From Macrotis lagotis (Eukaryota > Chordata > Mammalia > Peramelemorphia > Peramelidae), in NCBI RefSeq assembly GCF_037893015.1, contig NC_133666.1, positions 162,799,051-162,863,050 of the forward strand: DNA of 64,000 nucleotides, read 5' to 3'. The notes under the pieces are model-generated. The model was given only the letters and a program-made list of their open reading frames with translations. It ran no database searches and was not told the DNA's origin. The position numbers and the translations under genes are program-made. Below, one piece after another: positions 8,750 to 58,845 of the stretch. How positions within the stretch are numbered: position 1 is the first letter of the stretch; each line of letters starts with the position of its first letter.

Positions 8750-9900
8750 ATTTTGTCTAAAGTTGTGTTAATATTCAGACTGTTAACTTATGCTGATGTG
8801 CTGATGTTGCAGGTCATGAAAAGGCTTAACTGTTTAGTTTGTTTATCAGATGAACTCTCTAGTCATATATCAATTATTTTTCAGTTGGAACCAACAATTA
8901 TAGCAAATGGAGAAGATTTGAATATGGTGGATAAGTTCACTTACCTTGAAAGTATACTTTCCAGGGATGTACAATTGATAATTAGGTTGACACATATTTT
9001 GCCAGAGTTAGTTCAGTGTTTGGGAAGCTTTGAAATAAAGTGTGGGAGAGAAGAGGTATTAGACTGACTTTGGTAACTGAATGTCCACATATCTGTTGTG
9101 CTGATCTCATTGTTATATGCCTGTAAAACCTGGACAGAATAACAACACTATTCCAAAAGTGAATCACTTCCATTTAAATTGTTTTAGGAAGATTCTGAAG
9201 ATCACTTGTCAGGATAAGAGACACTGATGTATTTTCTCAAGTTAAAATGCCATACATTCAAATTCTTTTAAGAGAGTACAACTTTGATTGGCTGACCATG
9301 ATGTTCAGATTCTAAATGTACATTTGCCAAAAAAAAAAGAAAATAATTCATGCAGATATCACATGAGTAAGCATTCCCAGGGGAGTAAGAAAAAGTGATA
9401 CAAGGACACTCTCGAGGTTGTTGTTAAGAAATTTGGAATTGGGGGCAGCTAGGTGGCATAGTGGATAGAGCACCAGCCCTGGAGTCAGGAGTAGCTGAGT
9501 TCAAATCTGGCCTCAGACACTTAATAATTACCTAGCTGTGTGGCCTTGGCCATGCCACTTAACCCCATCTGCCTTGCAAAAATCTAAAATAAAAGAAAAA
9601 TAAAGAAAGAAATTTGGAATTGATTGTGTAGCATGGGAGACAATGGCACAGGACTGCTCAATGTGACATGCCCTCAAGAAAAGGTACTGTACTTCATGGC
9701 TGATGCAAAACGTGACTTGTGCAAGAGAGAATCCACCCCAAGTGTTCTCATGGACTATCTGTACCAGACTGTGATAGAGGAATTTGAGTTTGTATTGGTC
9801 TGATCACTCACAGTCAGACACACTGCAATTTGTCTCTTACAAAATAATGCCATTTTAGTCCTTTTTGAAGGACAAGAACTAACCAATTTGGAAGCTGATT
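8750..9900 (+). mobile_element. Decayed non-LTR retrotransposon, C-terminal part of the ORF
   Basis: The frame at 8753-9067 contains the FTYLESILSRDVQ block, matching the TYLGSxLSxD block that follows the reverse transcriptase in several vertebrate non-LTR families. Downstream, in shifting frames, are remnants of the 'HL..CLRKIL' region, the 'WxGHV.RM' region, and the WETMAQDC-like segment after 9620. The copy near 48.5-49.3 kb matches it block by block. A young SINE sits inside it at 9442-9606. Clade not assigned; there is no intact frame. Confidence 0.7.
9442..9606 (+). mobile_element. Young marsupial SINE with perfect target-site duplication
   Basis: A complete copy of the SINE. AAGAAATTTGGAATTG occurs at 9426-9441 and again, identically, at 9607-9622. 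It interrupts the non-LTR retrotransposon remnant above, so it is the later insertion. Confidence 0.97.
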
Positions 9901-10271: not shown

Positions 10272-10707
10272 TGTAAGAGACTTTGAGGATCACAGGAAGG
10301 TCATTGTGTGATTGGTAATGACTTAAAGGTCCTCTTGCCCAAAGTGCATCAATGGTCTACTCACCTGACTAAGCTCTCCAGATCTTCTCATCTGTTCCTT
10401 ATGTTTTGGCACTTCCTGGAGCATTGTGTGTAAACACTAAACAGGTGACAGCAACATGGTGTGAGAAGTACTAGCCTGATTAAGAAAACTTGTCACCTGC
10501 TGTCCACTAGCACTTAAGTATTGTTTGACTGTTAATTAGAGAATGACATTTGAATTGTGAGTAAACCAGGGACTGAGAAGATATCTAAGCTCCTTCATTC
10601 TGTAAAATAAATGGAGAACTTGTCATCTTTGTCTCCTACCCATTCAACATTTGTCTAAGACAATTCTTAGGTTATGACTAATGGATAAATTAGCCAGCAG
10701 GCACACA
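10272..10707 (+). repeat. 5' LTR of the provirus
   Basis: 436 bases, starting TGTAAGAGAC and ending GGCACACA. It aligns along its whole length with 18732-19146. The alignment includes GCACTTCCTGGAGCATTGTG and an AATAAA polyadenylation signal at 10606-10611. Hand alignment gives roughly 12% difference between the two LTRs, counting gaps approximately, so the insertion is old. Confidence 0.95.
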
Positions 10708-10712
10708 AATTA

Positions 10713-10731
10713 TGATGCTCAAGCATGGAGC
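10713..10731 (+). promoter_or_regulatory. Retroviral primer-binding site, tRNA-Lys type, decayed
   Basis: TGATGCTCAAGCATGGAGC lies 5 bases after the 5' LTR. It matches the Lys-1,2 primer-binding site at most positions, and the main differences are CG to CA/TG changes, as expected from CpG decay. A lysine primer is usual for betaretroviruses and agrees with the gag and protease evidence. Confidence 0.7.
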
Positions 10732-10924
10732 ACAAAGGCATGTTAAGCACTATTTGATTGGAGTCCAGGGGAAGAACCAAGCAAAACCACACATCAAAGG
10801 ACTGAGACTTTTGGCTGTCAGAAAAAGCTTCAAGAGACCAAGACTTTGAGCTGTCATACAAGTGAGGAAAAAGCTTCCAGGTGACAACCCAGAGCAGAAG
10901 ACTTTGGAGAGGTAGCAAGTTACC

Positions 10925-11830
10925 ATGGGGCAGATATTAGGGATATTTGAAAGGAAGTTGTAACATAATAATGGTGTGGAGGTGTGGAGGAAATCCAAGG
11001 TAAAGGGAGGGGATATTCTCCACAGTGGATAGAAAAGGAAGAAATAAATGAGTATTATCAAGAGGGGCCTAAGAGTGGTCCTACAGCACCATTTCATCAA
11101 AAGCCTTTAGCATTGCAGGAGGCCATCAAGAAAGCCAGGAATCTGGGAGAAAGTTTGGAGGATTTAGGAGCTAAGTTTTAGTCATATCCTGTTACTGAGG
11201 AGCCAGAACCTTTTAATATAGGAAACCTTAGGTGAAGACATGAACCAGGAAATATAAAAGCAGGCAGAAATTTAAAGAAGGCGGTGGGGGAGTACAGTGC
11301 AAGATCACCTTTTGTCCAGTTACAATTGGATACTCTTGCATACTCCATATTAACACCTAATGATTGGAAGCAGATAAGTCATGTTTGTCACCTGGACAAT
11401 CTGTTTTTGGATGACAGAGTTTGCAGAACAATGTAGACAGATGACTTTGAGGCATGCACAAGGTCCCAATGCCACCATATTATGAAAAATTCAGTGGCAC
11501 AAGTCAATTTCACAACAATGCAAACCAAATAAATTGTGAGTTAGAAACATATGAAAGAATTGCTACCTGCACAAAGAATATTTAGGGACATATTGCAATA
11601 CAAAATGAAAAGAAAGAACCATTTGCACTTATCAGACAAAGAAATGATTAGGCTTTGGTAGATTTCTTGGCTTGATTGCAGGAGGCAGTAGGAAGAACCT
11701 TAGGAGATGTAGCAGTGAATAAAAGTATTAATAAGATATTTACCATGGGCTAATTAATGCAATTGCTGATTGTCAGAAAGCAATGATTGACTTAAGAAAG
11801 AATGTCACATTACAAGTTATCACTAGGATA
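10925..11830 (+). pseudogene. gag remnant, matrix to capsid part
   Basis: Gag is the retroviral structural polyprotein that assembles at the membrane. The ATG at 10925 sits in a good initiation context (ACCATGG) and gives MGQILGIFER, with the N-terminal glycine needed for myristoylation. A stop follows within about a dozen codons and the frame shifts. A 65-codon open stretch continues at 10984-11181. Near 11620-11730 is a segment resembling the capsid C-terminal major-homology region (VDFLA, LQEAVGRTLGD). The gene breaks off where LINE-1 copy B was inserted and resumes after 14344. No working gag protein can be read from it. Confidence 0.8.
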
Positions 11831-11948
11831 ATACACTATTACAAAGTAGGATTTATCCCAGGGATGCAGGGTTGGTTCAATATTAGGAAAATATATATTA
11901 TATTGGCATATAATTAATTATATCAGGAACAAATGTATCAGAAATGAT

Positions 11949-12320
11949 ATGATTATATCAATAGATGCTGAAAAAGTTTTTAGCAAAATACAGCACACAT
12001 TCCTACTAAAAACACTAGCAAGTCTAGGAATAAATGGTTTGTTGCTTAGAATAATAAGCAGTATCTATCTGAAACCATCACCAAGCATTTTATGCAATGA
12101 GCATAGTCTAGAGACATTCCCAATAAGATCAGGCGTGAAAAAAGGATGCCCATTATCACCACTGCTATTCAATATTGTATTAGAAATGTTAGCCTCAGCA
12201 ATAAGAGAAGAAAAAGAAATTGAAGGAATTAGAATTGGTAAGGAAGAGACAAAACTCTCACTCTTTGCAGATGAAGATGACATCATGGTATACCTAGAGA
12301 ATCTCAAAAAAATCATCTAA
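11949..12320 (+). pseudogene. LINE-1 ORF2 reverse-transcriptase fragment
   Basis: A 123-codon open frame covering the central palm region of LINE-1 reverse transcriptase. About 15 residues in is the first aspartate motif ([12 protein letters not shown], usually DAxKAFD). About 60 residues in is [15 protein letters not shown], and near the end is [10 protein letters not shown] in place of FADDMIVY. The extra acidic residue in the catalytic motif and the truncation make it non-functional. It is part of the insertion that breaks the proviral gag. Confidence 0.9.
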
Positions 12321-13459
12321 AAAACTTCTAGAAATAATTAGCAACTTTAGAATAGTTGAAGGATATAAAATAAATCATCATAAATCCTCAACATTGCTAT
12401 ATATGACTAGCAAAATACAGCAGAAATATCTAGAAAGAGAAATCCCAAAGTAACCTCAGACTATATAAAATATGCAGGAGTCCACTATCAGGGCAGACTC
12501 AAAACCTTTTTGAAAACAATTACAAAACATTTCTCACACAAATTACATCAGGTTTAAATAACTTGGAAAACATCAACTGCTCATGGATAGGTTGAACTAA
12601 TATAATAAAAATGACAATTCTACTAAAACTGAATTATCTATTTAGTGTCCTACCAATCAAAATTCCAAAAAAATTAATGAATTAGAAAAAGTTGTAAGTA
12701 AATTCATATGGAAAAATAAAAAGATGATAATTTCCAGGGATTCAATGAAAAAAATACAAAAGTAGGTGGTTGAGCCCTACCAGATCAATTGTACTATAAA
12801 GCATCAGTCATCAGAACTGTCTAGTATTGGCTAAGACATAGAGTGGTGGATCAGTGGAATAGAGTCAGTGCAATAGCAGGAAATTATTATAGCAATATGC
12901 TGTTTCATAAACCCAAAGAGTCTAGCTAATGAGATAAAACTCTCTCTTTGATAAACATTGGGAAAATTGGAAATTATTATGGAAGAAATTTAGATTAGTC
13001 CTACACCTTATAACCTATACCAAGATAAGATAAAAATGGATATAGGATTTAGACATAAAAAAACATTATTATAAGCAAACTTGAAGATCAAGGACTAGTT
13101 TACCTATTAGATCTATGGAAAGAGAAGCAGTTTATGACCAAGGAAGAGATGGAGAACATCATTAAAAACAAAGTAAATAATTTTGATTACATTAAATTAA
13201 AAATGTTTTGCACAGATAAAACCATTGTAACTAAGATTAAAAGAAATGTAGTAAATTGGGAAGCAATTTTTAAAACTAACATTTCTGACAAAAGACTCAT
13301 TTTTGAAATTTACAGAGAACTGAGTTAAATTTTCAAAAAAAAAAACCATTCCCCAATTGACAAATGGTCAAAGGATAGGCAAAGGCAATTTACAGATGAG
13401 GAAATTGAAGTGATACATAATCATATGAAAATTGCTCTAAATCCTTACTTATTAGAGAA

Positions 13460-13792
13460 ATGCAAATTAAAGGATCTCTGGGATACCACCTCACACCTCT
13501 CATACTGGCTAATATGACCAGACAGGACAATGATCAGTGTTGGAAGGGGTGTGATAAATCTGGGACATTAATACATTGTTGGTGGAGCTGTGGACTCATC
13601 CAACCTTTCTGGAGAGAAATTTGGAAATATGCCCAAAGGGCAGCAAAAATGTGCTTACCTTTTGATCCTGCAATACCACTCCTGGGTCTATACCCTGAAG
13701 AGATTATGAAAAAGGGCAAAAACATCACCTGGACAAAAATATTCATAGTGGCCCTGTATGTGGTAGCAAAGAATTGGAAACTGCGGAAATGA
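13460..13792 (+). pseudogene. LINE-1 ORF2 C-terminal fragment
   Basis: A 110-codon open frame. It begins with QIKGSLGYHLTPL, then has a short internal loss, CWKGCDKSGTLIHCWWSCGLIQPFWREIW and PFDPAIPLLGLYPEE. These are standard landmarks of the LINE-1 ORF2 C-terminal Cys-rich region. The conserved 'tsvGEDveK' stretch usually found before it is missing, so an internal deletion is likely near 13510-13530. Confidence 0.9.
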
Positions 13793-14343
13793 TCTTCAAT
13801 TGGGGTATGGTTTAACAAACTGTGGTATATCTATGCCATGGAACACTATTGTTCTATTAGAAACAAGGAGGTATGGGAATTCAGGGAAGCCTGGAAGAAT
13901 TTGCATGAACTGATCCTGAGCAAGATGAGCAGAACCAGGAAAACACTGTAAACCCTAACAACAACATGGGAGTGATGATCACTCCATCAGTGCAACAATC
14001 AGGGACCAATTTTTCGCATCTGCAATGGAGAATTCCATCTGTATTCAGAGAAAGAATTGTGGAGTTTGAACAAAGACCAAAGATTACTACCTTTAATTTA
14101 GAAAAAAACCCATTATCTTATTATATAATTCTGCTATCTCTTATAATTTATTTTTCTTCCTTAAGGGTATTATTTCTCTCTCATCACATTCAACTTAGAT
14201 GAATGTATGCCATGGAAACAATGTAAAGACTAACAGACTGCCTTCTGTGGGTGGTGGGAGGAGGAGAGAAGGAAGATGGTGGGGGGGAAATTCTAAAACG
14301 AAATAAATAAAATCTTAAAGAAGCAAAAAAAAAAAAAAAGAAA

Positions 14344-14755
14344 GGATGCCATCATTGAAGAATGATTCAGAGATGTGACAGAATAGGGTCTCAGGTGTAT
14401 CATTCAGAATTAATGGCAGAAGTGTTTGATAATATGCACATGGGAAATAAAGAGAAACAGACTTGTTTTGTTTGTGGAAATCCTGGACATTTAAAAAAAT
14501 TATTAGAGTGCTCAAGGAATTAAACCCAGAAAGGTCAAGCCATATCATCCTAAAACTACATGACCAAAGTATAAAAAGGTAGGGCACTGGGCATCAAAAT
14601 GTAAACAAGGAAATTTAAACAGGAAAAGAGACCCTCCCCCAGGGGCCTCTCAAAAGCATTCATGGGGTATGACAGTTCAGGACCAGCATTGAATGGAATG
14701 GAAAAACCAGTGTGCAACTTTGAACAAGCTGACCCATACAAAAATATTGATAGTT
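14344..14755 (+). pseudogene. gag remnant, nucleocapsid part
   Basis: This continues gag after the LINE-1. Around 14460 the frame reads KQTCFVCGNPGHLKK, a retroviral CCHC zinc knuckle, although the final cysteine region is frameshifted. A second, partly decayed knuckle (GHWASKCKQG, near 14583-14612) follows with a basic, proline-rich tail. Two knuckles are typical of betaretroviral and lentiviral nucleocapsids. A SINE inserted at 14770 separates this part from protease. Confidence 0.85.
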
Positions 14756-14769
14756 AAAAGTGCTGGGAA

Positions 14770-14924
14770 GGGGCCACTGGGTGGTGCAGTGGATAGAGCA
14801 CTGGCCCTGGAGTCAGGAGTACCTGAGTTCAATTCCGGCCTCAGACAATAACTCTCTAGCTGTGTGGCCTTGAACAAGCCACTTAACCCCATTTGCCTTG
14901 CAAAAAAAGGAAAAAACTAAATAA
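14770..14924 (+). mobile_element. Marsupial SINE inside the provirus
   Basis: A complete copy with an A-rich tail. The duplication AAAAGTGCTGGGAA is perfect at 14756-14769 and 14925-14938. It inserted after the provirus. Confidence 0.96.
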
Positions 14925-14938
14925 AAAAGTGCTGGGAA

Positions 14939-15290
14939 ATTTTGGATACCTCCACATGCTTGTACTGAAGTGCCTATTCACCCTTTATGATTAACTGATA
15001 ATGAGTTTGAAATTATTTTGGCTCCACCAAATCCAGAATATATTTACATTATACCTTTAGTAAAGCACGTGAGCTGGAAAATTTTCTCTATTGCAATAGT
15101 GGATGTTAATGATGATAGTTACATAACAGAGAACCAATGTATAGCTCAGTTTCGTGTTTTCTCAGGATCTTATATAAATTGAAAGGAAAAGGAGCACATC
15201 AAGGGGCCAAAACTGAGAAACAATAATGAAGCTATGTTTACTAATATGTTTTTTATTCAGAAAAACCCTCTTTGTGTTTTCCAAGTAGAA
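14939..15290 (+). pseudogene. gag-pro spacer / possible dUTPase remnant
   Basis: Retroviral sequence between the nucleocapsid and protease. One frame reads APPNPEYIYIIPLVK and later ENQCIAQFRVF. Betaretroviruses usually encode a dUTPase domain here, and the length and position fit. I cannot point to a complete set of dUTPase motifs, so this is inferred from position. Confidence 0.4.
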
Positions 15291-15560
15291 GGATTTGCTT
15301 TCTTAGGCTTAATTGACACTGGGGCAGATTGGATTGTGCTCCCAGATACAGAACTGGCCACAAGCTTGGTCTAAACAAGCTGCCTATACTAACATAGTAG
15401 GCATTGGAGGTCAACAGTAAACAGAAATTTCTTGTCAACCCTTGAAATGGAGAACAGAAGATAAAGCAAGGACTGTCACTCCTTTCATAGTTGAAGGACT
15501 TCTACAATATTATGGAGAAAGGATATATTGTGTCAATTAGGGGCAAAAATTAGAATAGAT
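15290..15560 (+). pseudogene. Retroviral protease (pro) remnant
   Basis: Retroviral aspartic protease cleaves the Gag and Pol polyproteins. The active-site block FLGLIDTGADWIVLPD is read at 15300-15347, with the catalytic D-T-G at 15315-15323. After a frameshift there is a flap-like VGIGGQQ, then a stop, then PFIVEGLL. The C-terminal landmark, here decayed to WRKDILCQLGAK, is at 15513-15548. It is frameshifted at least once and interrupted by stops. Confidence 0.88.
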
Positions 15561-15639
15561 TTTTTGATTGGGGCTACTGTTGAGTTGCGAAGGCTCCAAC
15601 CTATATGGGTGGAAAAGTGGCCCCTTACTGGAGAAAAGA
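15549..15639 (+). pseudogene. Start of reverse transcriptase, then junction to zinc-finger sequence
   Basis: The same frame as the protease end continues into the pol N-terminus: ATVELRRLQPIWVEKWPLTGEK. The QPIW..KWPLT block is the characteristic start of retroviral reverse transcriptase. Reverse-transcriptase homology stops after WPLTGEK (about 15637). None of the later RT landmarks (fingers, YxDD-type catalytic motif), RNase H or the integrase core is found. The frame runs on without a stop to 15821, into zinc-finger sequence. See the findings for the junction. Confidence 0.85.
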
Positions 15640-17735
<2,096 letters not shown>

Positions 17736-17741
17736 AAAAAG

Positions 17742-18060
17742 GGAGTATATATGATATATTTGCCAATAGATTGAATTATGTTATTTCAAGAAAAAAGTAA
17801 TGTGAAAAGATAGGGAAGGAAAGTGGATAGGACCTAAGTAATAATTCAAGAGCCAGGGTATATTTGTATTTCCACAGGAAATGAAAAAATATGGGTCCCT
17901 GAAAGGAATGTCTGCATTATCACTGAAAGAGAGAACCAACATGTGGAGGAAGAAGTGCAGGTCATAGAAATGCAAGAGAAGGAGACAAAGGAACAGACCC
18001 TTGGAAGTAATCAAACTAATGCTTCAAATACAAAAGATGAACTTTCACAACATCGATGTC
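17742..18060 (+). pseudogene. Integrase C-terminus remnant
   Basis: Viral homology resumes. MLFQEKSN is followed, after two stops, by GYICISTGNEKIWVPERNV at about 17857-17913. This is the conserved C-terminal (SH3-like) end of retroviral integrase, where a WVPxRxV block is typical. A charged tail then runs open from 17943 to about 18050. The catalytic core (DDE) and zinc-binding N-terminal domain are absent. Confidence 0.82.
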
Positions 18061-18109
18061 AGGGATATTGTGATCTTTATGTAACGATACAAGAAATATT
18101 TGGAGTAGT

Positions 18110-18540
18110 GGGCAAAAACCTTGTCAATATCCTGTTACTTGGGGCATTGGAAAAGAACATGTTTTTCCACCCTTTTAGTATTATACTAATGTAAAACTTT
18201 GCTATAAGATTGCTGATAATTTTGTGATTCAGCCATGGCATAATGATGGTTATAATGTATCATTTATATGGTGGGATGGAAAGCTGTTGCTGCAATGAAT
18301 AATGTACATAACCTGTTGTAATTGCACAGTGTTGGGGAAAATAGCAAATGACATTGTTATGTTAAATGTTACTCTTTTTGGTTTTGGTTTTGAATTAAAT
18401 TGATTTGGGGATTAATAGCAAGTGATGATTTGGACCCTCCCCGTGCATAGGGTATCCATGATGGTAGTGTTTATGTGTCCTAGTACTTTTCATACAGTAT
18501 TGTCTAAAAATAAACCACCCTCTTGCAGATGGCTTAAAGG
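18110..18540 (+). pseudogene. Short env-like remnant
   Basis: After the integrase tail, in the place of env, the frames give TWGIGKEHVFPPFS and then WHNDGYNVSFIWWDGK, suggestive of a retroviral surface glycoprotein. No transmembrane subunit, fusion peptide or membrane anchor is found, so most of env has been lost. The assignment rests mainly on position. Confidence 0.45.
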
Positions 18541-18568
18541 AAATTCACCCCAAAAAATAAAAAGGGAG

Positions 18569-18712
18569 GGGGCAGCTAGGTGACACAGTGGATAGAGCAC
18601 TGGCCCTGGAGTCAAGGGAACCTGAGTTCAAATCTGATCTCAGACACAAATGATTACCTAACTGTGTGACCTTGGACAAGTTACTTAACCCCACTGCCTT
18701 GTAAAAAACTAA
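18569..18712 (+). mobile_element. Marsupial SINE in the proviral polypurine region
   Basis: A complete copy between two purine-rich stretches (AAAAAGGGAGG before, AAAGAAAGGAGGGG after). These look like a duplicated polypurine-tract target, although the repeat is imperfect. Confidence 0.9.
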
Positions 18713-18731
18713 AAGAAAGGAGGGGAGGATT
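18713..18731 (+). promoter_or_regulatory. Proviral polypurine tract
   Basis: AAAGGAGGGGAGGATT directly precedes the 3' LTR. This is where plus-strand DNA synthesis is primed in retroviruses. Confidence 0.75.
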
Positions 18732-19146
18732 TGTAAGAGACTGTTGAGGCTGACAGGGTCATTGAGTGACTGGCAATGACTTGAAGGTTCTCTTGCCCAA
18801 AGTGCATCAATGGCTTACTCACCTGGGTTTACTCTCCAGATCTTCTCATCTGCTCCTTATGTTTTGGCACTTCCTGGAGCATTGTGTGTAAGCTAGTGAT
18901 AGCAACTTTGTGTGAGAAGTATTAGCCTGAGGAAGTAAACTTATCAGCTGCTGTCCACTAGTACTTAAGCATTGTTTGACTGTTAATTAGAGAATGTCAT
19001 GTGAATTGGGAGTAAACCAGGGACTAAGAGCTTGCATTCTGTAAAATAAATGGAGAACTTGTCATTTTTGTCTACTGCCTCTTCAAGGTTCATCTTAGAC
19101 AAGGATTAGTTTATGAGTAATGGATAAGTTAGCTGGCAGGCACACA
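18732..19146 (+). repeat. 3' LTR of the provirus
   Basis: 415 bases, same start and end as the 5' LTR. The polyadenylation signal AATAAA is conserved. The 21-base size difference comes from small deletions (for example relative to 10436-10450 and 10574-10588). Confidence 0.95.
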
Positions 19147-20346
19147 ACATAAAACATTTCCATGTTAGTCACAGTTGATAAAAAGAAAATTATTAAAATG
19201 GAAAAAAACATGAAAAAGAATCAAAGTTGAACAAAATTATGCTTCAATCTTCATTCAGAATCGATCAATTCTTTATCTGCACATGGATAGCATTTTCCTG
19301 CAGAAGTTTGCTTCCTGCATGAGACATTGATAGTTGATCATCATACAATGTTGCTAATTCTGTGTACCATGTTCTCCTGTTTCACATCAGTTCATAAAGG
19401 ACTTTCCAAGTTTTTTTGAAATATGCCTATTCATCAATTTTTAGTTAATTAATAGTATACTTCAGTTTGTTTAACTGTTCCCCAACTAATGGACATCCCC
19501 TTAATTTTCTATGTTTTGTAATCACATAAAGGACTTCTATAAATATTTTGTATATAAAGCTCCTTTTCCATTTTTTTTTTGTGATCTCTGGAAAATAGAC
19601 CTAGTGGAAGTATTTCTGGAACAAGAGGTATGCGTAAGTTGCTTGGCCTTTGTGTATAGTTACAAATTCCTCTCCAGAATGGTTGGAACACTTCACAACT
19701 CCAACAATAATTCATTAATGTCCTAATTTTCCTACATCCATTCCAACATTTAATCATTCTTTTTTAGTTATATTATTAGATAATCTGATAGATGTGAGGT
19801 AGTACCTGAGTTATTTTCATTTTTATTTCTCTGATCAAAAGTGATTTAAAGCACTTATTTATATGCCTATAAATAGCTTTTATTTCTTCATCTGAAAACT
19901 TCCTGTTCTTGTCCCTTATCAAATGTGGAAAAATTTGTATTCTTATATATTTGACTCAGGTCTCTATATAGTTGAGAAATGAGAACTTTATAAGAGTCAC
20001 TTTCGGGAAAGATAGTTTCTGAGTTTTCTGCTTTCTTTCTAAACTTTGTTGCATTGGGTTTTGTTTGTACAAAAGCTTATTAATTCAATAAAATTAGAAA
20101 GATCTATTTTACCTTTCATAATTCTATCTCTTATTTAGTTATAAACCTGTAGTTCTCTAATTTCTTTAAGAATTTTGATACAATACTGCTTGGTGCATTT
20201 TTGTGCAGTATTGATATTACTTTATTGCTTATGATACCTTTTAGCAAGATTTAGTTTCCTCGATTATCTCTTTTATTTAAATCTATTTTTGTTTTTGTCA
20301 TATCTGAGATCAGGACTGCTATCACAGCTTTTTAAAAATATATACC

Positions 20347-20511
20347 GGGGGGGGGGGGGCGGCTAGGTGGTGGCTAGGTGGCGCAGTGGATAAAGCACCG
20401 GCCCTGGAGTCAGGAGTACCTGGGTTCAAATCTGGTCTCCGACACTTAATAATTACCTAGCTGTGTGGCCTTGGGCAAGCCACTTAACCCCATTTGCCTT
20501 GCAAAAACCTA
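20347..20511 (+). mobile_element. Marsupial SINE with G-run head
   Basis: A complete copy preceded by a run of about 13 G. Its head carries a small tandem duplication (GGCTAGGTGGT then GGCTAGGTGGC). Little diverged otherwise. It is followed directly by a long TA repeat. Confidence 0.93.
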
Positions 20512-20529
20512 AAAATACATATATACATA

Positions 20530-29029: not shown

Positions 29030-30436
29030 AGGTATTGTGATTCACATTTTTTTCCTTCCCTCCCCTACTCCCCTTCACAGAGAATAAACTAACATGGGCT
29101 AAATATGTATAACTGTTAACCATATTTCCATATTAATGAGATTATGAAAGAAGAATCAAATCAAAAAAGAAAAAAAACACTTGAGAAATAAAAAAAAGTG
29201 AAATTTATAAAAAAACATGAAAATAGTATAGTTTGTACTTCATTCAAACTTCTTTGTTCCTTCCCTGGATTTGGATGGTATTTTCAATTAGAAGTCCTTT
29301 AGAATTGTCTTTGATTATTGTTCTACTGAGAAGAGCAAGTCCATCATGGCTAATCATCTGTGTTACTTTTAATGTATATATGTTTTTCTGGTTCTATTCC
29401 CTTCACTCAAACCAGTTCATGCAACTTTCCAAGTTTTTCTGAGTCTGACCACTCATGATTTTGTTCAACCATTTCCCAATTTATGGGCATTCCCTTAGTT
29501 TTTCAATTATTTGCAATGAATAGAATTGCTATAAATATTTTTGCATATGTGAACTTATCACTCTTTCTTATGACCTCATTTAAATACAGACTTAGGAGTA
29601 GCTCAATTAAAGGGTTAACTCTCCAGAAAGGTTATTCTGAAGATCAGTTCACAACTCTACCAACAATACATTAGTGTCCCACTTCTCTCACATCCCCTCC
29701 AACATTTATCATTTATCTTTTTTGTCATATTGTTGAAACCTCAGAGTGGTTTTAATTTACACTTCTCTAATCATAATGATTTAGAGCATCCTTCCATATG
29801 TTTATAAATTGTTTTAATATCTTTACCTGAGAACTTCTTGCTCATATCCTTTGAACATATATCAATTAGGGAATGAATTGCATTTCTTAAAAATTTAATT
29901 CAGTTCTCTACATATTTTAGAATTGAGTTCTTTATCAGAAACACTGCTTGTGAAAAGTGTTTCCCAGATTACTGTCTTCCTTTTAATCTTGACTGCATTG
30001 GTTTTATTCGTGCAAAACCTTTTTAAATTTAATGTGATCAAATTTAATGTGATGCATTTTGCATTGTCTTAGGTTCTCAAACTTTTCTTTGGGTATAAAT
30101 TCCTCCCTAATCCATAGATCTGTCAGATAAACAAGTCCATGTTCTCCAAATGGACTTATTGTAGCAAATTTTATGTTAAATCCTGTACTCATTTCAACCT
30201 TATCTTGGTATAGGGTATGAAAGTTGGTCTATGCCTAGTTTCTGCCATACTATTTTCCAGTTTTCCCAGTAGCTTTTGTTAGTGTGAGTTCTTTATCAGA
30301 AGTCAGAATGGTTGAGTTAATCAAGCAGTAGATTACTGTGGTCATTTACTATGTTTCTTTTGAACCTAATCCATTCCACTGATCCACCACTCTATTTCTT
30401 AATCAATAAAAAAGCAATTTTGAGGACTGCTGCTTT

Positions 30437-30587
30437 TCTTTTTAGGTTTTTGCAAGGAAAATGGAGTTAAGTGGTTTGTCCAAGGCCACACAGCTAGGAA
30501 ATTATTAATTGTCTGAGACCGGATTTGAACCCAGGTACTCCTGACTCCAGGGCTGGTGCTTTATGCACTACGCCACCTAGCTGCCCC
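30437..30587 (-). mobile_element. Marsupial SINE inside LINE-1 copy C
   Basis: A complete copy in reverse (tail on the left, 'CCACCTAGCTGCCCC' head on the right). It is flanked by ACTGCTGCTTT at 30426-30436 and 30589-30599. Confidence 0.95.
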
Positions 30588-33500
30588 AACTGCTGCTTTC
30601 TTAATATAATTTTAAAACTAGTTTGGCTAGAACAGCTTCTTTTACCTATTTTTAAATAATTTTCTTGACATTCTTGATCTTTTGTTCCTCTATTTGAGTT
30701 TTGATATTATTGTTTCTAGCTCAAATTAATTTTTTGGTAGTGTGATTGATTTGGTACTGAATAAGTAATTTAATTTAGGTGGAATTGTCATTTTTATTTT
30801 ATTAGCTTGGCTTAATCATGAGCAATTGAAATTTGTCCAATATTTTAAATCTGATTTTATTTGTGTGAAAAAGGTTTTCTAATTGGTTTCATAAAGTTTC
30901 CAGATTGGTCTTGACAGGTAGACTCCCAAGTATTCTATGTTGTCTGTACTTTAAATGAAATTTTTCTATTTATCTCTTTCTACTCTGCTTGGTTGATTAT
31001 GTATAGAAATACTGAAGATTTATGTGAGTTTATTTTATATCCTGTAACTGTGCTCAAATTGCTAATGGCTTCTAGTAGTTTTTAAGATGATTTCTAGGAT
31101 TCTCTAAACAAATTATCATATTATCTTCAAAGTTTTATTTTCTGAATGCCTATTCATTTTCTGTTTCTCTTCATTTGATAAAGTTAACTGTTTTAATGCA
31201 ATATTGAATAATATTGGAGGTAAATGTTAGCCCTGCTCTGTCCTGATCTAATTGAGAATGCATCTAGCTTATTCACATTATATAATTTGCTAATTATTTT
31301 AAAGAGGTACTATTTATGATTTTTATGGAAAATAACATTTATTCCTATGTTCTCTAAGTTGATTAATAGAAATGAGTGCTGTATCTTGTCTAAAGTTATT
31401 TTCAGCATCTATTGAAATAATCATATGATAACTGTTAGTTTTTTAATTGATATAGTCTAATATGCTTTCATAGCTAAGTTAATAGCTTACCTAATATTGA
31501 ACAAGCATACAATCTTGGTATAACTCCTACTTGATCATAGTGTATTATTTTAATTATAACTTACTGAAATCACTTTGCTTATATTGTATTTAAATATTAA
31601 GCACCAATAGTCATTAAAGAAGTTGATCTATAATTTTCTTTCTCTATTTTGATACTGGCTTAGGTTTCAACTCTATATTGTCTCATAGAAGAAATTTGGT
31701 AGAATTTCTCCATATTAGTTTTTTTTTTTTCCAAATGATTTCTAAAAAATAGAATTAATTGTTCTTTAAATGTTTGGTAGGATTCATGTGTAAATTCATC
31801 TGACCCTAGAAATTTCTTCTTAGGGTGTTCATTGATGAGTTATTCAATTTCTTTTTCTGAAATGAGATTATAAAAGTGTTTAATTTCCCTTCTGTTAATC
31901 TGGGCAATTTAATTTTTTGTAAATGTTAATCCATTTCACTTAGATTGTAAATGTGTTGGCATATTATTGGGCAGAATAGCTCTAATTATCTCTTTAATTT
32001 ACTCCTCATTGTTAATGAATTCTCACTTTTCATTTTTCATTACTGGTAATTTGGTCTTCTTTTATTTCTTAAATCAAATTAACTAAAAATCTCATCTTTT
32101 TATTAGTTTTTCATAAAATAACTTCTTAGTTTTATTTGTTCCATAAAGTTCTTACTTTCAGTTTTATTACTATGTCCTTTTATTTTCAGAATTTCTGATT
32201 TTCTTATTTAATTAGGGAATTTTTATTTGTTCTTTTTCTAGCTTTTTAGTTGCATTCCCAATTCTTTGATCTCCTCTTTATTTTATTCATATTAGCAAAT
32301 TTAAAAATAAAAAAAAATTTCCCCTAATAACTGCTTTGACTGCATCACAGAAGGTTTGGTATACTGTCCCACTAGTGACATTATTTTAGATGAAGTTATT
32401 AATTATTACCATTATTTGTTGCTTGATTCACTCATTTTTTAAAATTATAGTATTTAATTTGTAATTGGTTTTAGTCTGCCTTTCTATCGTGCTTTATTGC
32501 ACATAATTTTTATTTCATCAAGATCTGAAAATAATGTATTTGATATTTCTGCCTTTCTACATTTTATTGTGAGGTTTTAATGCCCTAATAAATGATCAAT
32601 TTTTGTTTACGTGCCATATACTGCTAAGAGAAATGTATATTGCTTTCTATAAGCCATTCAGTTTTTCTTCAGAGGTATATCAAATCTACCTTTTCTATAA
32701 CGTTATTCATCTCCTTAACTTCCTTCCTGTTTATTGTCTGGTCAAATTTATCTAATTTTGAGAGAGGGAGGTTGTGGTTCCCCCCATCAGTACAGTTTTG
32801 ATGTCTATATCTTCAAGTAACACATTTAACTTCTTCTTTAAGAATTCAGATGTTATACAACTTGTTGTATATGTATTTTGTATTGATATTACTTCATTAC
32901 CTATGATAACTTTAGGAAGATGAAGTCTTTTTCTTCATCCCTTTTAATGATATCCATTGGTGCTTTTTATTTGTCTGAGATAAAGATTGCTACCACTGCT
33001 TTTTCACTTCATATGAAGCATATAATATTCTGCTCAACCTTTTAAATTTATTCTTTGTATATCTCTCCACTGCAAATGTGTTTCTTGCAAAAATCATATT
33101 AGAGGAATCTGGTTTTCAAATCACTCTACCCTCTTCCATTTTATGGGAAAGTTTATCACACTCACATTCACAGTAATCATTATTAACTTTATTAACTTCC
33201 ATCCTAGTTTTCCTCAATTTGTACTCTTCTTTCTTCTTTCATCTTATCCCTCCTCACTAATGTTTAACCACTGAATACTGCTTTCCTCAATATGAAATCC
33301 TTCTATCTGCCCCTCCCTTTTCTTTTCCCTTTCTCTTTTTACTTCCCCCTTTTTCCTTTGTCTAGTCCCTTCCTTTCATCCCTCCCTTCTATCAATTCCT
33401 CTTTCTCCCCCCCCCCCCAATTCCCTATAGGGCATGATAAATTCCCACTCATGTATGTGTATACGCTATTCCTTATTTGAATATGCTATTCCCTCTGAGT

Positions 33501-36104: not shown

Positions 36105-36590
36105 TTTCTTTTTTTTAAGCAAAGTTTTATTTATTTTGAGTTTTACAATTTTTCCCCTATTCTTGCTTCCCTCCCCCCACCGCCCACGGAAGGCAGTCTG
36201 TTAGTCTTTTCATTGTTTCCATAGTATACATTGATTTAAGTTGAATGTGATGAGAGAGAAATCAAATCCTTAAAGAAGAAAAGTAAAGTATAAGATATAG
36301 CAAAATTACATAATGAGATAATGGCTTTTTTAATCTAAATTGAAGGTAATAATCTTTGGTATTTGTTCAAACTCCACAATTTGTTCTCTGGATATAGATG
36401 GTATTCTCCATCACATATAACCCAAAATTGTCCCTAGTTGTTGCACTGATGGAATGATCACCACTCCCATGTTGCTGTTAGGGTGTACAATGTTTTTCTG
36501 GTTCTGCTCATCTTGCTTAACATCAGTTCATGCAAATCCTTCCAGGCTTCCCTGAATTCTCATGAGGGATTCATTTCTCTAAAGTTCTTT
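36105..36590 (-). mobile_element. LINE-1 3' end, minus strand
   Basis: Reverse complement of the 3' UTR of LINE-1 copy B: 'ccctccccccaccgcccacggaaggcagtctgttag' and 'ttgttacatgttgctg'-type blocks, then the last ORF2 codons ('cttgcttaacatcagttcatgcaaatcc'). 5'-truncated. Confidence 0.85.
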
Positions 36591-37719: not shown

Positions 37720-38120
37720 TAGTCAAAAATTCAAAGATTTCAAACAGTGGGAGAAAAAATTGCAACACCTAAAATATTTTCATGGGATTCCTTTTTTTAG
37801 TAACAAAAAATTAGAAATAAGAGTATCAACAATTTAGTAGATGGTTGCGTGAATTGTAGTACATGGATATTATGTAATATGAACTATAAGCAACAAATAT
37901 GACAAATTTTGAGAAATCTTGAGACATTCAAGGGGCAGCTAGGTGGCATAGTGGATAAAGCACCGGCCTTGGAGTCAGGAGTACCTGGGTTCAAATCCAG
38001 TCTCAGACACTTAATAATTACGTAGCTGTGTGGCCCTGGGCAAGCCACTTAACCCCGTTTGCGTTGCAAAAATGTTAAAAAAAAATCCTGAGACAATCAG
38101 AACTGATGCAGCATTAAGTG
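37720..38120 (+). mobile_element. Old LINE-1 3' region, interrupted by a SINE
   Basis: 'agtaacaaaaaattagaaataag', 'gtagtacatggatattatgtaatatgaac', then after the SINE 'cagaactgatgcagca'. These match the ORF2 end and 3' UTR layout ('gcaaagaattggaaactgcgg', 'tgtggtatatctatgccatgg') seen in LINE-1 copy B. Diverged. Confidence 0.6.
37932..38084 (+). mobile_element. Marsupial SINE
   Basis: Complete, little diverged. Flanked by AATCTTGAGACATTCAA and AATCCTGAGACAATCAG, a duplicated target with a few changes. Confidence 0.95.
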
Positions 38121-41650: not shown

Positions 41651-42650
41651 ACAAACAAAAAACAGATTCAGCATAGTTTTTCTTTCAAGAAGAAAGAATT
41701 ATTTTATTCCATGGTTACAATCACTTTCTGAAGTAGTCTTTGAGTCCAAGAATATAAAATCTGACACTGCTACCCATACTTTGCTCTCTACTTACCAAAA
41801 AGTGATGGGACCAGTTGCCAAGATCTTAGTTTGTTTGATGCTTAGAAAAGCTATAAATGGGATATTTATTAAAGTGTTATACTAAGTTATATTAAGTGTT
41901 ATTCTAATAAAATGTTGACACAAAACATCCTTCATCCAAATCTGTGACACAATCCCCCACAAACACATATAGAGTTTAGGGAGCACATTTCAGCTTAGAG
42001 GGTACATCTGGGAAAAGGGTTAACTCAAAGATTCTAGTTGCAAGAATTTTTTTTCTCTCCCTCATGGGAGACTCATACAGTTCTCCTTAGGCATAGTGCA
42101 GCTTTCTTCTAGGTTTCTTAATGTCTTGAATCTTGTTTCATTCAATGTGTCTAATTTGTCCTTGACTGTGCTACAGACACTATTAACAATTATTACTGAC
42201 CTTGGGATGATACTAGGAATTGTATGAGTCCAAATTTTCTATCAAAAGTTTGCAAAGTCATCCTATAGTCAAAGGAGGTAAGGAATTAATACCCTATCTT
42301 TCTTCCTAACACAAAAATTTCCCTCAGTAAATATCTGGAAGTTTTCTTTGACTACTAGAGTCTCTGGTATGCAAAGTATTCTACTATTTTATATAAGACC
42401 CAGAATGTGCCTGTGTTTCTTCAGTCAGTTGTATACTACATGTGGAGATATATTGCATTTTATTCACTGAATTCTTCTTCCTCACATAGATTTTGATTGC
42501 TTGCTTGAATCAGTAGAGAGGTCTAGGCCTTAGTATATACCTTTGATTCAATTAAGAATTTCCCTGACACTTAGCAATTACTGAGGTAAAGATAGAACAT
42601 GTTTGTCTCTTACACTCAAATATCCCTAGTGCCATGCTCACAGAAATAAT
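41651..42650. other. Unique stretch, nothing recognised
   Basis: The frame at 41565-41885 starts in the SINE tail and is not protein-like. No gene or RNA seen. Confidence 0.5.
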
Positions 42651-42654
42651 ACAA

Positions 42655-45465
42655 ACAGGTGGGCCAAGATGGTGACATGAGAACAACCTTTCCTAGGAGC
42701 TCTATCCAAAATTTTTCAAAAACCTTAAAATTATGTCTCTAACTAAATTTTAGAGAGAAAGAACACACAGAAAGGTCCAGTGAGTCAATTCTCCAGCCCA
42801 AGGTAACCTGGAAAACCATGAGAAGACTGTGTTCCACAGAGTTGGAGGGGGTGGCAGTACCTCCAGAATCACTGTGCCTGAGTGAAGGAACTCCAGCCTT
42901 CCAGGAACAGTCTGTGGGGTGCCTGAGTTCCTGGGAGCTCTGCCTCCTGGCAGCAGAAGCAGTTTTCTGACCTGCCAACCCAGGGAACAGTAAGCACAAC
43001 TTGGAAGATCAGTGGGAAAACTTCTGCCAGAGTGAGTGGGAGCCCTCATTGCAGCCATGGTCATCAGCACAGCCCAGATCCCAGGAAACAGAAGCAGGCC
43101 TGTGGAGCCACCCAGCAGGGAGCTGCCTGGCATCTGTTTCTAGAGTGCTCAGCCCACAGAAGGTAAGGGGGTGGGGAGAGACTGTTGGTCTTTCCTCTGT
43201 CTCTGGGACAGGTCTGCTGCTTTGTCCATATTCAGACATTGCTTGCAGTCTGAGGACCCCATTGTTATAGAGTAGGGACCCTCCTCTCAGCTACAAGGAA
43301 GAGGGTTATGTTTGTGGTCATCCACAGACCAAAGTGCAGGTGAGGAGAGCCTCTCGTAAGAACTTGAAGGAACTGAGGGCCTAGCAGGGGAAGCTTGGGA
43401 AAGCCCCCAAACCCAGGGCCCAGGCTGGGGAAATGAGTAAACAGAAAAAAAGGGAAGCTAACCATTGACAATTACTTTGGCCCCATAGAAGATCAAAACA
43501 TACATTCAGAAGATGACAAAGTTCAAGTTTCTGAATCCAAATCCTCCAGGAAATATAGGAGTTGGGCTCAGTCTATGACAGAGGTCAAAAAAAGGTTTTC
43601 AAAGTCAAGTAAGGGAGATAGAAGAAAAAATGGGAAAAGAAATGAGAGAGATGCAGGAAAAACATGAAAACCAAGTCAGCAGCTTGGTGCAGGAGATCCA
43701 AAAACTTCTGAAGAAAATAACATGCTAAAATCCTGTTCAGGTCAAATGGAAAAAGCAGTCCAAATAGTTAATGAGGAGAAGAATGCCTTAAAAAACAGAA
43801 TTGACCAGATGGAAAAGGTGACAAGAAAGCTCTCCAAGGAAAAAAAAAAACCAGCTCCTTCAAATGCAGAATGAATCTAAAGGAAGCTGATGACTTTGCA
43901 AGAAATCAAGAAACAATAAAAAATATCAAAAGAATGAAAAACTAGAAGAATAATGTGAAAAGAACTGACCTGGAGAAGAGATCTAGAAGAGAGAATTTTA
44001 AAATTATTGGGCTACCAGAAAGTCATACTCAGGAAAAGAGCCTTGACTTCATTTTTAAAGAATTCTATAGGAAAATTATTCTGATGTCCTAGAAGCAGAG
44101 GGTAAAGTATAAATTGAGAGAATCCACAAATCTCCTCCTGAGAAGTCCCCCCAAAAATAACCCCCAGGAATATTATAGCCAAATTCCAGAACTCCCATAT
44201 CAAAGAGAAAATATTTCAATCAACCAAATTAAACAATTCAAATATAAGATTTAGCAGCTTCTATATTAAGGATTCATAGAGCTTGGAATATGATATTTCT
44301 GCAGGCAAAAGATTTTGAATTACAACCAAGAATTAACTGCTCAGCAAAACTGAACACCCTCTTCTAGGGGAAAAGATGAACTTTCAGTGAAACAGGGGAA
44401 TTTCAACATTTCCTGGTAAAAGTGCCAGAGCTGAACAAAAATTTTGATCTTCAAATACAGGACTCAGGTGATGTACAGAGAGCGTGGATGAGACGGGCTA
44501 ATTATGAGGGATTTAAGTATGATGAACTGTATGTATTTCTGCATTTGAAGATGTCACTGATAATGCTCATATGGACCTTTTCATTTATTAGAGCAGTTAG
44601 AAAGAGTTTTTTTATAGATGAGGTACAGGAGAGAGTCGAATCAAAAGGTATAATATATTTTTTAGAATGGAGTCAGTGGGTGAAAAGGGGATATACTGGG
44701 AGAAAAGGAAACGAGGGATAGAATAGATTAAGATATTTCATGTAAAAGAGTCAAGAAATAGCCTTTGCAATGGTATGCAGGAGGGGAAGGTGAAAGGGAA
44801 TGAGAGAGCCTTCATTCTCATTGGAAATAGCTCATAAAGGAAACAACATACATATACTTAATAGGGTATAGAAGTTTATAAGAAAAAAGAATAGAAAAGG
44901 GATGGGATAAAGGGGACAGGGAGGGGGGTTATAGTTGATACAGGAGAGGGTAGATCATGGGAGAGGATAGTCAGATATAACACATTTTCTTTTTTTTTTA
45001 CTTTTTGCTAGGTGTGGGATTGGGTGGCCTGTCTGGGAACCCCAGGACTAGGTGTTTGTGGGGTCTTCAGGTGGGATGCAGGTTTGGGACATCCTGGTAC
45101 CAGGGCTGGTGCTCTGTTTGCTGATCCACAGCACACTTATGAATAGGGATAGAGTGAAAGGACAGAGAAAAGATAATAAATGGTAGTGGGGCTGAATGGA
45201 TGGAGGGAATTATAATCAGCAACACCAACTGTGGAAAAATATGGAAATAACTTCTCTAATGTACATATGACAAACAGTGCTATCCACCCCAGAGACAGAA
45301 CTGATGGTATTGGAAAACTGACCAAAGCACATTTTTTTCCTCTTTCTTTCACTTTATTCCTCATGAGGTTTTTTATTTTTGTGGTGGTGGGGGGATATGT
45401 TTATTCTTACAAGATCATTTTAGTAATCTTTAAATAACTAAAAATGTAAATTAAAAAAAGAAATA
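42655..45465 (+). mobile_element. HAL1-type (ORF1-only LINE-1-derived) element
   Basis: Starts GGGCCAAGATGGTGAC, with a GC-rich 5' UTR to 43430, then an ORF1 start codon at 43433 and ORF1 remnants to about 44200. A long non-coding 3' part follows (44.2-45.46 kb), ending in an A-rich tail after 'taaataactaaaaatgtaaatt'. No endonuclease or reverse-transcriptase landmark is present in 2.8 kb, which matches half-LINE-1 (HAL1) elements described in mammals, including opossum. These depend on LINE-1 proteins in trans. The copy has frameshifts. Confidence 0.75.
43433..44200 (+). pseudogene. HAL1/LINE-1 ORF1 remnant
   Basis: The ATG at 43433 gives MSKQKKREANH, then a stop. In shifted frames follow IHSEDDKVQVSESKSSRKYRS and a coiled-coil-rich stretch (QMEKAVQIVNEEKNALKNR and similar, about 43745-43805). 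Next is the basic NVKRTDLEKRSRRENFKIIG start of the RNA-recognition-motif region (about 43957-44010), with IGLPE as in LINE-1 ORF1. The order of coiled coil then RRM is standard for ORF1p. At least three frameshifts or stops inactivate it. Confidence 0.75.
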
Positions 45466-54618: not shown

Positions 54619-54978
54619 AGATAATCTCAGGAGAAAGGTCTAACAAGAAGAAAATTGTGAGTCAAGAGGGACTTAAAAAGCTAGATCTAGACTATGGGGG
54701 ATTATTATTTGGAGTGACTAAGATTTTCACCAATTTTGACAAATTGAATATAGGAGGAAATGACTGAAAATTAAGATAGTGTCTAATATAAGGTATGAGG
54801 CAATTGACTCTGTGGAAAAGGCAAAGATTAAACAATATGGTAGATGTCCACAACCTATAGCATTACAGGTTTTATGAATGTCAAATCCTACATTTGGAAG
54901 GAATCTAAGAATTCATCCACCACCACAAATAGGTATTAATCGTTATAATATGCCTGGCAAAAGATGTTAGTCATTTTT

Positions 54979-55145
54979 TTTTTCTTTTTTAAGGTTTTTT
55001 TTTTCTTTTGCAAGGCAAATGGGGTTAAGTGGCTTGCCCAAGGCCACACAGCTAGGTCATTATTAAGTGTCTGAGACCACATTTGAACGCAGATACTCCT
55101 GACTCCAGGGCCCTGGCTTTATCCACTGCGCCACCTAGCCGCCCA
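54979..55145 (-). mobile_element. Marsupial SINE
   Basis: Complete, reversed, with a long T-rich tail side. Target duplication ATGTTAGTCATTTTT at 54964-54978 and 55146-55160. Confidence 0.97.
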
Positions 55146-55160
55146 ATGTTAGTCATTTTT

Positions 55161-55975
55161 AAAGTGCATTTAGTTTGGGAAAATTATTGCCTCATGTGGC
55201 AGCTAATTCTTTTCTTTTAAACCCTACCTATTTATTTTGCATTTCATCCTTATAATGAGATGAAATATGAAATTTTTATAGGATGGCATAACTCATTATT
55301 TGAAGACTTCTCATATAGAAACTTTGATCCAATTGCCTCATTTGATTAGAGAAAGAGACTTCAAAACAAAAACTTATTCTTTCAGAATTTTTATGCTCAA
55401 TAATAAGAGACTCAGCAACTCCTTGGTACAGATTTTTACCTTTAATCTTCATTTTAAAAAAAATCCTACTCTTGGTGATAAGAAGACTGGGTTGAATCAC
55501 TCATATAAAATTAATTACTATCAATGGTGAAAAGAAAGTCTTTAGATTTACAACATTTATATAGAAACATTAAAATACTATTTTAACTTTTTCACGAACA
55601 AATGTCTTATTTTCAAAACATGGTAGAGAGTGTAGTTGGTAAAGTGTGTGTCAGTATGAGTGACTTAGAATCTCAGGGAGGCATTATTTGCTACTAAACT
55701 TGTTTTTAACATCTAGTAAAGGATACATTGGCCTTAAAGAGTCAACATATATTCATCAAGAAAAGGTTTTGTCAAAAAACTTCATTTCCTTTTAAGACAT
55801 CTAAATAATTTTGTTGGTGCAAATAACCTAGATTTAATACCGCTTTCGGACAATTTCTCATGATATCCTTGTGGATGAGAGAGAGAAGTGGTTATCCAGG
55901 TTATGAAAATTTCATGTTAAGGGAAACCACTACCCTCTTTGGAAGTCCATTCCACTTTTGTATTCTGACACATGG
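55161..55975. other. Unique stretch, nothing recognised
   Basis: Frames on both strands at 55276-55530 overlap one another and show no family character. Confidence 0.5.
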
Positions 55976-56289: not shown

Positions 56290-56790
56290 TTCATCTATGT
56301 GTACATATATATTTTTGTAACAAAATTTCCTTCCACCCTCCCTTCCCACCCCTCTCCTCTCGGCTACGAACACTGAGGTTAGTATTGTATATACATATTT
56401 TTGATAAACATGTTTATAGATTAATCATTTTTGGTATGAGGAATTAAGATTAAGGGAAAGAGATACATAAGATATATAATTTTTATAAAGTGTTCATCAG
56501 ATTGTAAAGGGTTGTTTTTGTTTTTGTTTTGTTTTTATTCCTCTGGATGAGGGTAACATTGTTCTTAGCTGATCTAATAGGGTTGTCCTAGCTCTCTGAA
56601 ATGCTGAGAGGAGCTGTTTCCATCATGGCTGATCATCTCACAATGTTGTTGTCAATGTGTACATTGTTCCCTTGGTTCTGATCCCTTCACTCAGCATCAG
56701 ATTCCATAAGTCATTAATATTCCATAGTATTCATGTACCATAACTTATTTAGTCCTTCCCAAATTGATGGGCATATATTCACTTTTTTAA
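56290..56790 (-). mobile_element. LINE-1 3' end, left arm of an inverted pair
   Basis: The pyrimidine-rich 3' UTR ('aatttccttccaccctcccttcccacccctctcc'), 'tttggtatgaggaattaagattaagggaaagagatac', and ORF2-end blocks ('ggttctgatcccttcactcagcatcag'). It shares its first 190 bases with the copies at 26995-27240 and 56800-57050. Confidence 0.75.
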
Positions 56791-56799
56791 AGAACTCTC

Positions 56800-57050
56800 A
56801 TGTATTTCTTTTCTTTTATCCTAATTCCTCATACCAAAAATGACTAATCTATAAGCATACTTAAAACAAATGTGTATGCAAAATATTAACCTGACTGTCC
56901 TCGCTTGATGGGAGGGGGGTGGGAAAGGAGGATGGAAGGATGGAAGGAAATTTTGTAACTGAAAAGATGTATATAAGCATATGGATGAATGCTGAAAATC
57001 TTTTATAACATGTATTTAGAAAAAGAAAACATCAATAAAATAAATTTCAA
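56800..57050 (+). mobile_element. LINE-1 3' end, right arm of an inverted pair
   Basis: 'ttttatcctaattcctcataccaaaaatgactaatctataagc', 'ggaggggggtgggaaaggagg', AAATTTTGTAAC and an A-rich end with AATAAA. Inverted copy of the outer part of the left arm. Confidence 0.75.
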
Positions 57051-58351: not shown

Positions 58352-58595
58352 GCTGTCTTACTCTCTCTTCTGATATACAGTGCCTATCCTTAACTGTCAG
58401 TTAAACATTTAAATGAGAAGAATCTGCTTTTTAGACATCTTAAATTGTATGTTCCATAAGCTTCTCAAGCTCAATAGGTACATAACAGAACTCAGTATAT
58501 TTCACTCTAAATCCTCCCTTCTTCTCATATTGCCTGTCATATTTGAGGAAACCACCATCCACCCAGTCACCTATTTATAGCTTTGGTCTTATTCT

Positions 58596-58747
58596 TTTTT
58601 TTTAGGATTTTGCAAGGCAAATGGGGTTTAGTGGGTTATCCAAGGCCACACAGCTAGGTAATTATTAAGTGTCTGAGGCAGGATTTGAACCCAGGTACTC
58701 CTGACTCCAGGGCCAGTGCTTTATCCACTGTGCCACCTAGCTGCCCC
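58596..58747 (-). mobile_element. Marsupial SINE, complete unit of a dimer
   Basis: Complete and reversed, tail at the left. The left flank TGGTCTTATTCTT ends at 58595. Confidence 0.93.
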
Positions 58748-58757
58748 AAACTATTCA

Positions 58758-58845
58758 TTGTATTAAGTGTCTGAGACCGGATTTGAACCCAGGTACTCCT
58801 GATTCCAGGGCCAGTGCTCTATCCACTGTGCCATCTAGCCTCCCC
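58758..58845 (-). mobile_element. Marsupial SINE, partial second unit
   Basis: Only the head half of the SINE ('tattaagtgtctgagaccggatttgaaccc' to 'ccatctagcctcccc'), with no tail of its own. It is joined to the first unit by about 10 bases (AAACTATTCA). The target repeat TGGTCTTATTCTT recurs at its right end (58845-58857), so one duplication flanks the whole pair. Confidence 0.9.

Follow-up and report, generated by a model that had tools for sequence, protein, structure and literature searches.

A zinc-finger array in place of most of pol in a decayed provirus of Macrotis lagotis: a candidate case of host mRNA capture

Introduction

How does a tandem array of zinc fingers come to lie inside a retrovirus? 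The question is raised by a provirus at 10272-19149 of a 64,000-nucleotide stretch of Macrotis lagotis DNA (NCBI RefSeq GCF_037893015.1, contig NC_133666.1, positions 162,799,051 to 162,863,050; the whole stretch is the window below). The provirus is decayed and betaretrovirus-like (class II), and a C2H2 zinc-finger array lies on its own strand between its protease and integrase remnants. An earlier note, made from the letters alone, proposed that a retrovirus had transduced a host gene of KRAB-ZNF type. In the literature available in part, KRAB zinc-finger proteins are described as major sequence-specific repressors of endogenous retroviruses (ERVs) in tetrapods; a retrovirus with captured fingers would be a rare relic of an exchange in the opposite direction. 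The best explanation identified here is that host mRNA was transduced through template switching; it is held with a confidence slightly above even.

Results

Architecture of the provirus

The anatomy of the locus, with the strand and order of its parts, is as follows:

10272..10710, + strand: 5' long terminal repeat (LTR), by identity to 18732-19147; AATAAA at 10606
10713..10731, + strand: primer binding site of tRNA-Lys type, by local match to the complement of the tRNA-Lys 3' end
11236..11582, + strand: gag capsid remnants (pieces 11236-11433 and 11451-11582), by Pfam Gag_p24 and PDB capsids
14359..14689, + strand: nucleocapsid remnants with a zinc knuckle, by zf-CCHC for 14359-14520
15183..15537, + strand: protease remnants (15183-15371, likely also 15421-15537), by Pfam RVP, the second piece by position only
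15582..15641, + strand: boundary of protease and reverse transcriptase (RT) up to the joint, by a presumed motif only
15642..16493, + strand: degraded C2H2 array of about nine fingers with a stop at its end, by Pfam, eight sites over background and three full-spacing fingers
16494..17740 (about 1.25 kb; right edge 17650-17810), + strand: T-rich segment, probable 3' untranslated region (UTR) of the captured gene, by composition
17790..17963, + strand: integrase C-terminal remnant, by IN_DBD_C, extended to 17790 and 17963 by eye
18074..18550, + strand: possible env remnant, by position only
18552..18731, + strand: polypurine stretch, split by a short interspersed element (SINE) at about 18564-18712, by sequence
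18732..19149, + strand: 3' LTR, by alignment to the 5' LTR; AATAAA at 19045

The two LTRs reported in the earlier note are borne out: their identity is 83.3% across an alignment of 438 columns (to 19147). Their Kimura two-parameter (K2P) divergence is ~0.15, a slight overestimate that includes a few badly aligned bases beyond the LTR end. At mammalian rates, LTR divergence of this kind corresponds to tens of millions of years. Judged by these values, the provirus is therefore old. The score of the tRNA-Lys primer site, matched with what we take to be the tRNA 3'-end letters, was equalled by 15 of 4000 random 40-mers; for the alternative tRNAs Lys-TTT, Trp and Pro, the corresponding counts are 60, 751 and 2210 of 4000.

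Assignment of the class draws on the paired LTRs, the primer site and the capsid. The first capsid piece matches Gag_p24 (E 5.6e-9), the second falls below the cut-off (E 0.063). A PDB search with 11236-11433 returned nine matches, led by the capsid 2v4x (E 1.5e-4) and followed by HERV-K chains (E 0.006-0.012); the matches named capsid p27 and HERV-K Gag are short and weak and span E 1.5e-4 to 0.024. The p27 chain is presumably that of jaagsiekte sheep retrovirus or Mason-Pfizer monkey virus. Because this piece matches p27 capsids and HERV-K Gag, the capsid points to a betaretrovirus-like element. Downstream, the zinc knuckle in 14359-14520 matches zf-CCHC below the family cut-off (E 0.0017), and a Pfam search of 14564-14689 found no family. 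The protease piece 15240-15371 matches RVP just over the cut-off (E 2.9e-4), the longer 15183-15371 just under it (E 7.1e-4), and the second piece at 15421-15537 has no PDB match. Gag, protease and the polypurine tract, all claimed previously, are thus present.

Other viral parts named in the earlier note are less secure. Its first RT codons correspond to what we take to be an RT-start motif; 15534-15818 matches no Pfam family and no PDB entry, and no retroviral pol core was recognised at the locus. The integrase C-terminus does find an IN_DBD_C match over about 17850-17912, albeit a weak one below the cut-off (E 0.0046). For the env-like piece at 18179-18295, the Pfam search returned zero families.

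The zinc-finger array

The array is best preserved in its middle and end, where 16012-16272 matches zf-H2C2_2 (E 1.4e-18) and zf-C2H2 (E 9.6e-11) and 16335-16490 matches zf-C2H2 (E 1.1e-6), all above cut-offs. Shorter pieces (15820-15945, 15949-16008 and 16276-16371) give finger matches below cut-offs. With a 60-nucleotide finger string, eight sites of the array score 39-54 of 60, against 35 for the best other + strand site in the window. All three strict C2H2 matches in the six frames of the window lie inside the array. The claim of about nine fingers in one orientation between viral parts thus holds for 15642-16493; it does not extend to 16494-~17740, which contains neither fingers nor any recognised viral part.

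Three in-frame stops and frameshifts break the array. Nonetheless, about 25 of 28 zinc ligands are kept in the seven downstream fingers (counted by eye, frameshifts allowed), a level consistent with neutral decay over the time of LTR divergence. This survival suggests that the young provirus probably carried an intact array, which has since decayed unprotected.

A simple scan of the window for a KRAB box, using what we take to be its core, found none; the best site reaches 11 of 19 positions and lies outside the array, leaving the KRAB-ZNF-type label unproven. The fingers of such zinc-finger genes usually lie in one exon. With no further strict finger and no convincing KRAB match in the window, a local zinc-finger gene or cluster appears unlikely.

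The viral place most like the finger array is the DNA of the nucleocapsid knuckle at 14464-14484 (12 of 12 and 14 of 16 bases). This likeness is probably a coincidence of two zinc-binding motifs.

The T-rich segment

The array is followed by the T-rich segment, which includes an (AT)n run at 16539-16614 and has no match in the window beyond that run. Its position and composition suggest that it is probably the 3' UTR of the captured gene. Neither AATAAA nor ATTAAA occurs from 16481 to 18393; for the 1171 AT-rich bases of 16620-17790, 9 of 500 shuffles likewise lacked both signals. As proof of selection this lack was rejected, since 11 of 106 other windows are also without a signal.

The joints of the insert

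The left joint, at about 15627-15641, is crossed by an open frame of 108 codons (15495-15818) that the protease/RT boundary and the first finger share. The likeness of the joint to the finger array was scored against viral places, the joint included: its score is reached by 9 of 2129 for 12-mers, 18 of 2123 for 14-mers and 19 of 2117 for 16-mers. The letters of the left joint are thus more finger-array-like than ~99% of viral places. As read from the letters, this similarity fits template switching at short similarities, a process described for LTR elements in the available parts of two reports (PMC5408686, PMC9674220).

The right joint can be placed only to 17650-17810, about 150 bases, as composition change points are not sharp. 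No target-site duplication beyond chance was found around the insert. In wide windows at its edges the best 12-mer pair matches at 10 positions and the best 14-mer pair at 11; 626 and 637 of 1000 random pairs, respectively, do as well. Just past the A-rich stretch at 17728-17741 the best is 8 of 12, equalled by 962 of 1000.

These results bear on a rival explanation, in which the provirus integrated in ordinary form, later received a zinc-finger retrocopy or a segment of DNA, and lost the remainder of pol through deletion. A retrocopy made by LINE-1 (L1) is expected to leave poly(A) and a duplication. This is the signature that the earlier note named for a later, single-locus event; here, matches between the insert edges are no better than chance, and the single A-rich stretch towards the right end has no poly(A) signal upstream of it. 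Two events and the correct strand would also be needed. Decay or deletion could, on the other hand, have erased both marks, and how well such marks survive at this locus can be judged from three later insertions, all overlooked in the earlier note:

11808..14337 (edges approximate), + strand: L1 3' fragment, inserted later into gag, by RVT_1 in an ORF2 RT piece at 11850-12317
14765..14925, + strand: first SINE, inserted later between nucleocapsid and protease, by repeat families
about 18564-18712: second SINE, splitting the polypurine stretch, by repeat families

The L1 piece at 11850-12317 matches Pfam RVT_1 (E 1.7e-16). An RT at 11.85-12.3 kb was considered as retroviral and rejected, as it sits within this L1-type insert. 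The naming as L1 is our assumption, made together with an inverted repeat in the window: the L1 end at 13873-14279 has an inverted relative at 36155-36563. Used as controls, the three insertions give one clear duplication, that of the first SINE (14 of 14; none of 1000 random pairs does as well). The L1 duplication at 11794 and 14338 is marginal (12 of 14, 27 of 1000 random pairs; 10 of 12, 152 of 1000), as is that of the second SINE (equalled by 25-54 of 1000). Duplications of such age are therefore often barely detectable. That later insertions are common at the locus also speaks for a retrocopy, as do an env that is likewise mostly unrecognisable and the single known copy. On balance, later insertion of a retrocopy is possible, if rather unlikely.

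Discussion

Capture of host mRNA

Taken together, several lines of evidence favour host mRNA capture. Cis-acting elements are kept at both ends (LTRs, the tRNA-Lys-like primer site and the polypurine stretch) while the coding part is missing; the array is on the strand of the provirus with its first finger in the protease/RT frame; the left joint resembles finger-linker DNA; and no other fingers were found in 64 kb. Chance-level matches between the edges of the insert, and a right edge with no poly(A) signal nearby, favour capture over a later retrocopy. The earlier proposal of transduction is therefore partly supported: by sequence comparison it appears to suit the anatomy better than a retrocopy acquired later, with one copy known and no donor found.

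The mechanism would proceed as follows. A class II retrovirus of a marsupial lineage would package the mRNA of a C2H2 zinc-finger gene, or be co-transcribed with it. During reverse transcription, a switch between viral and host RNA would occur near the RT start, at viral sequence resembling a finger linker, and another near the integrase end. The product would be a defective genome of the form LTR-gag-pro-[zinc fingers and part of the 3' UTR]-integrase C-terminus-env remnant-LTR, which would need a helper's Pol and could then integrate at this locus. We infer both the RNA-level capture and the helper dependence. The SINE type in the window is presumably that of a marsupial host, and from this lineage we infer the host of the virus.

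A number of results weigh against capture. The chimera rests on one copy, and no donor was found in protein searches. The similarity at the left joint is partly circular, its letters being possibly host-derived, and was rejected as proof of template switching; the nucleocapsid knuckle outscores it for 12- and 16-mers. The right joint is imprecise, and the lack of poly(A) signals in the T-rich segment is shared with the other windows mentioned above. As two of the three control insertions have marginal duplications, a lost duplication at the finger insert would be unsurprising. An AATAAA within the fingers at 16000 would have to be read through by the genomic RNA, if present then. The state of env indicates that deletions probably occurred here without capture. 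Finally, the flanks of the provirus show no significant duplication (best 8 of 12, equalled by 133 of 196 random pairs), so that two LTRs do not prove a single integration.

This last point opens a further alternative: two proviruses of one family may have flanked a zinc-finger gene, and deletions joined a 5' half, the gene and a 3' half. Consistent with such an origin are the difference of ~15% between the LTRs and, in the part of one report that was available, the richness of young mouse zinc-finger clusters in ERV-driven change (PMC12575710). Both LTRs nevertheless fit one element in order and strand, and the window yielded no further finger, no further copy of the LTR and no credible KRAB-like match, making this origin improbable. 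An assembly or cloning artefact joining unrelated sequences is more improbable still: stops and frameshifts occur in both the insert and the viral parts, and the sequence gives no sign of a break.

If host mRNA was captured, the chimera might have been more than a single event. A mobile, helper-dependent retrovirus family, with fingers fused in frame behind Gag-Pro, is an extension to which little credence is given. If true, host fingers of a kind that recognises retroelements travelled in a virus, where they could compete with host repressors or steer integration.

Donor and relatives

Searches for a donor covered a protein database that includes marsupial zinc-finger proteins. For the array, 4410 of 4542 candidates match, and the best 120 of these 4410 are 39-51% identical, which by sequence is generic finger similarity. 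None of 17 candidates for a query across the joint, and none of four for the first fingers, matched at E up to 1. Five pieces of protein and an LTR word, used as queries against viral contigs, yielded nothing carrying fingers; two weak matches, to L001 (40% over 39 residues; contig of 60 kb) and L002 (14 residues surrounding the active site of the protease; 28 kb), are likely chance. Rfam and tRNA scans were empty.

Other features of the window

One SINE family has many copies in both orientations (9442-9594, 20367-20519, 30419-30604, 37932-38084, 54977-55162, 58579-58764 and 62833-63018). Among 2-kb segments of the window, 42001-44000 has the highest G+C content (0.417); a minus-strand open frame at 42753-43139 had no match in a Pfam search. 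An inverted repeat at 56328-56940 has 145-nucleotide arms, 78% complementary and 323 nucleotides apart.

Comparison with known systems

The closest parallels are ERVs with host mRNA inside them. ERV-Hako, a primate group II ERV with SUSD6 or SPHKAP 3'-UTR inserts (PMC11905727), resembles the present provirus as a class II ERV with an internal piece of host mRNA from a 3' UTR. It differs in that several copies share the SUSD6 insert and the primer is tRNA Trp; the available part of that report names no coding or zinc-finger part. In crocodilians, CrocERV31 carries nectin3 and CrocERV29 carries KIT-ligand (PMC4299795). Here too host mRNA lies inside an ERV, and nectin3 replaces a viral gene; as far as the available text describes them, these elements differ in having six and nine copies, open reading frames with signs of purifying selection and known donors, and in losing env (nectin3) or nothing (KIT-ligand), against pol here.

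At the level of mechanism, LTR-mediated retrocopies likewise join host mRNA to LTR-element sequence at short similarities, according to the accessible portions of PMC5408686 and PMC9674220. As described there, they often pair an incomplete stretch of an mRNA with fragments of the element; here, the insert lies between both halves of a provirus. Acute transforming retroviruses also capture host genes, but are exogenous and carry growth-promoting genes. Their captures often cost viral genes. Template switching is reportedly how LTR-mediated retrocopies arise (Tan et al. 2016). FAM8A1 in a human ERV may be a further precedent. A marsupial counterpart is RecKoRV, which belongs to another retrovirus genus than the provirus here. 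It comprises defective koala retrovirus forms, as mentioned in the available part of PMC11905727, and, like the provirus at this locus, is a defective element in a marsupial.

Among the titles and abstract openings surveyed, with most subscription journals out of reach, none described a provirus containing a C2H2 array. Capture of host genes by ERVs is already known for KIT-ligand, nectin3 and SUSD6. If the capture is real, a zinc-finger gene would bring a new class of donor to the small set of ERV captures.

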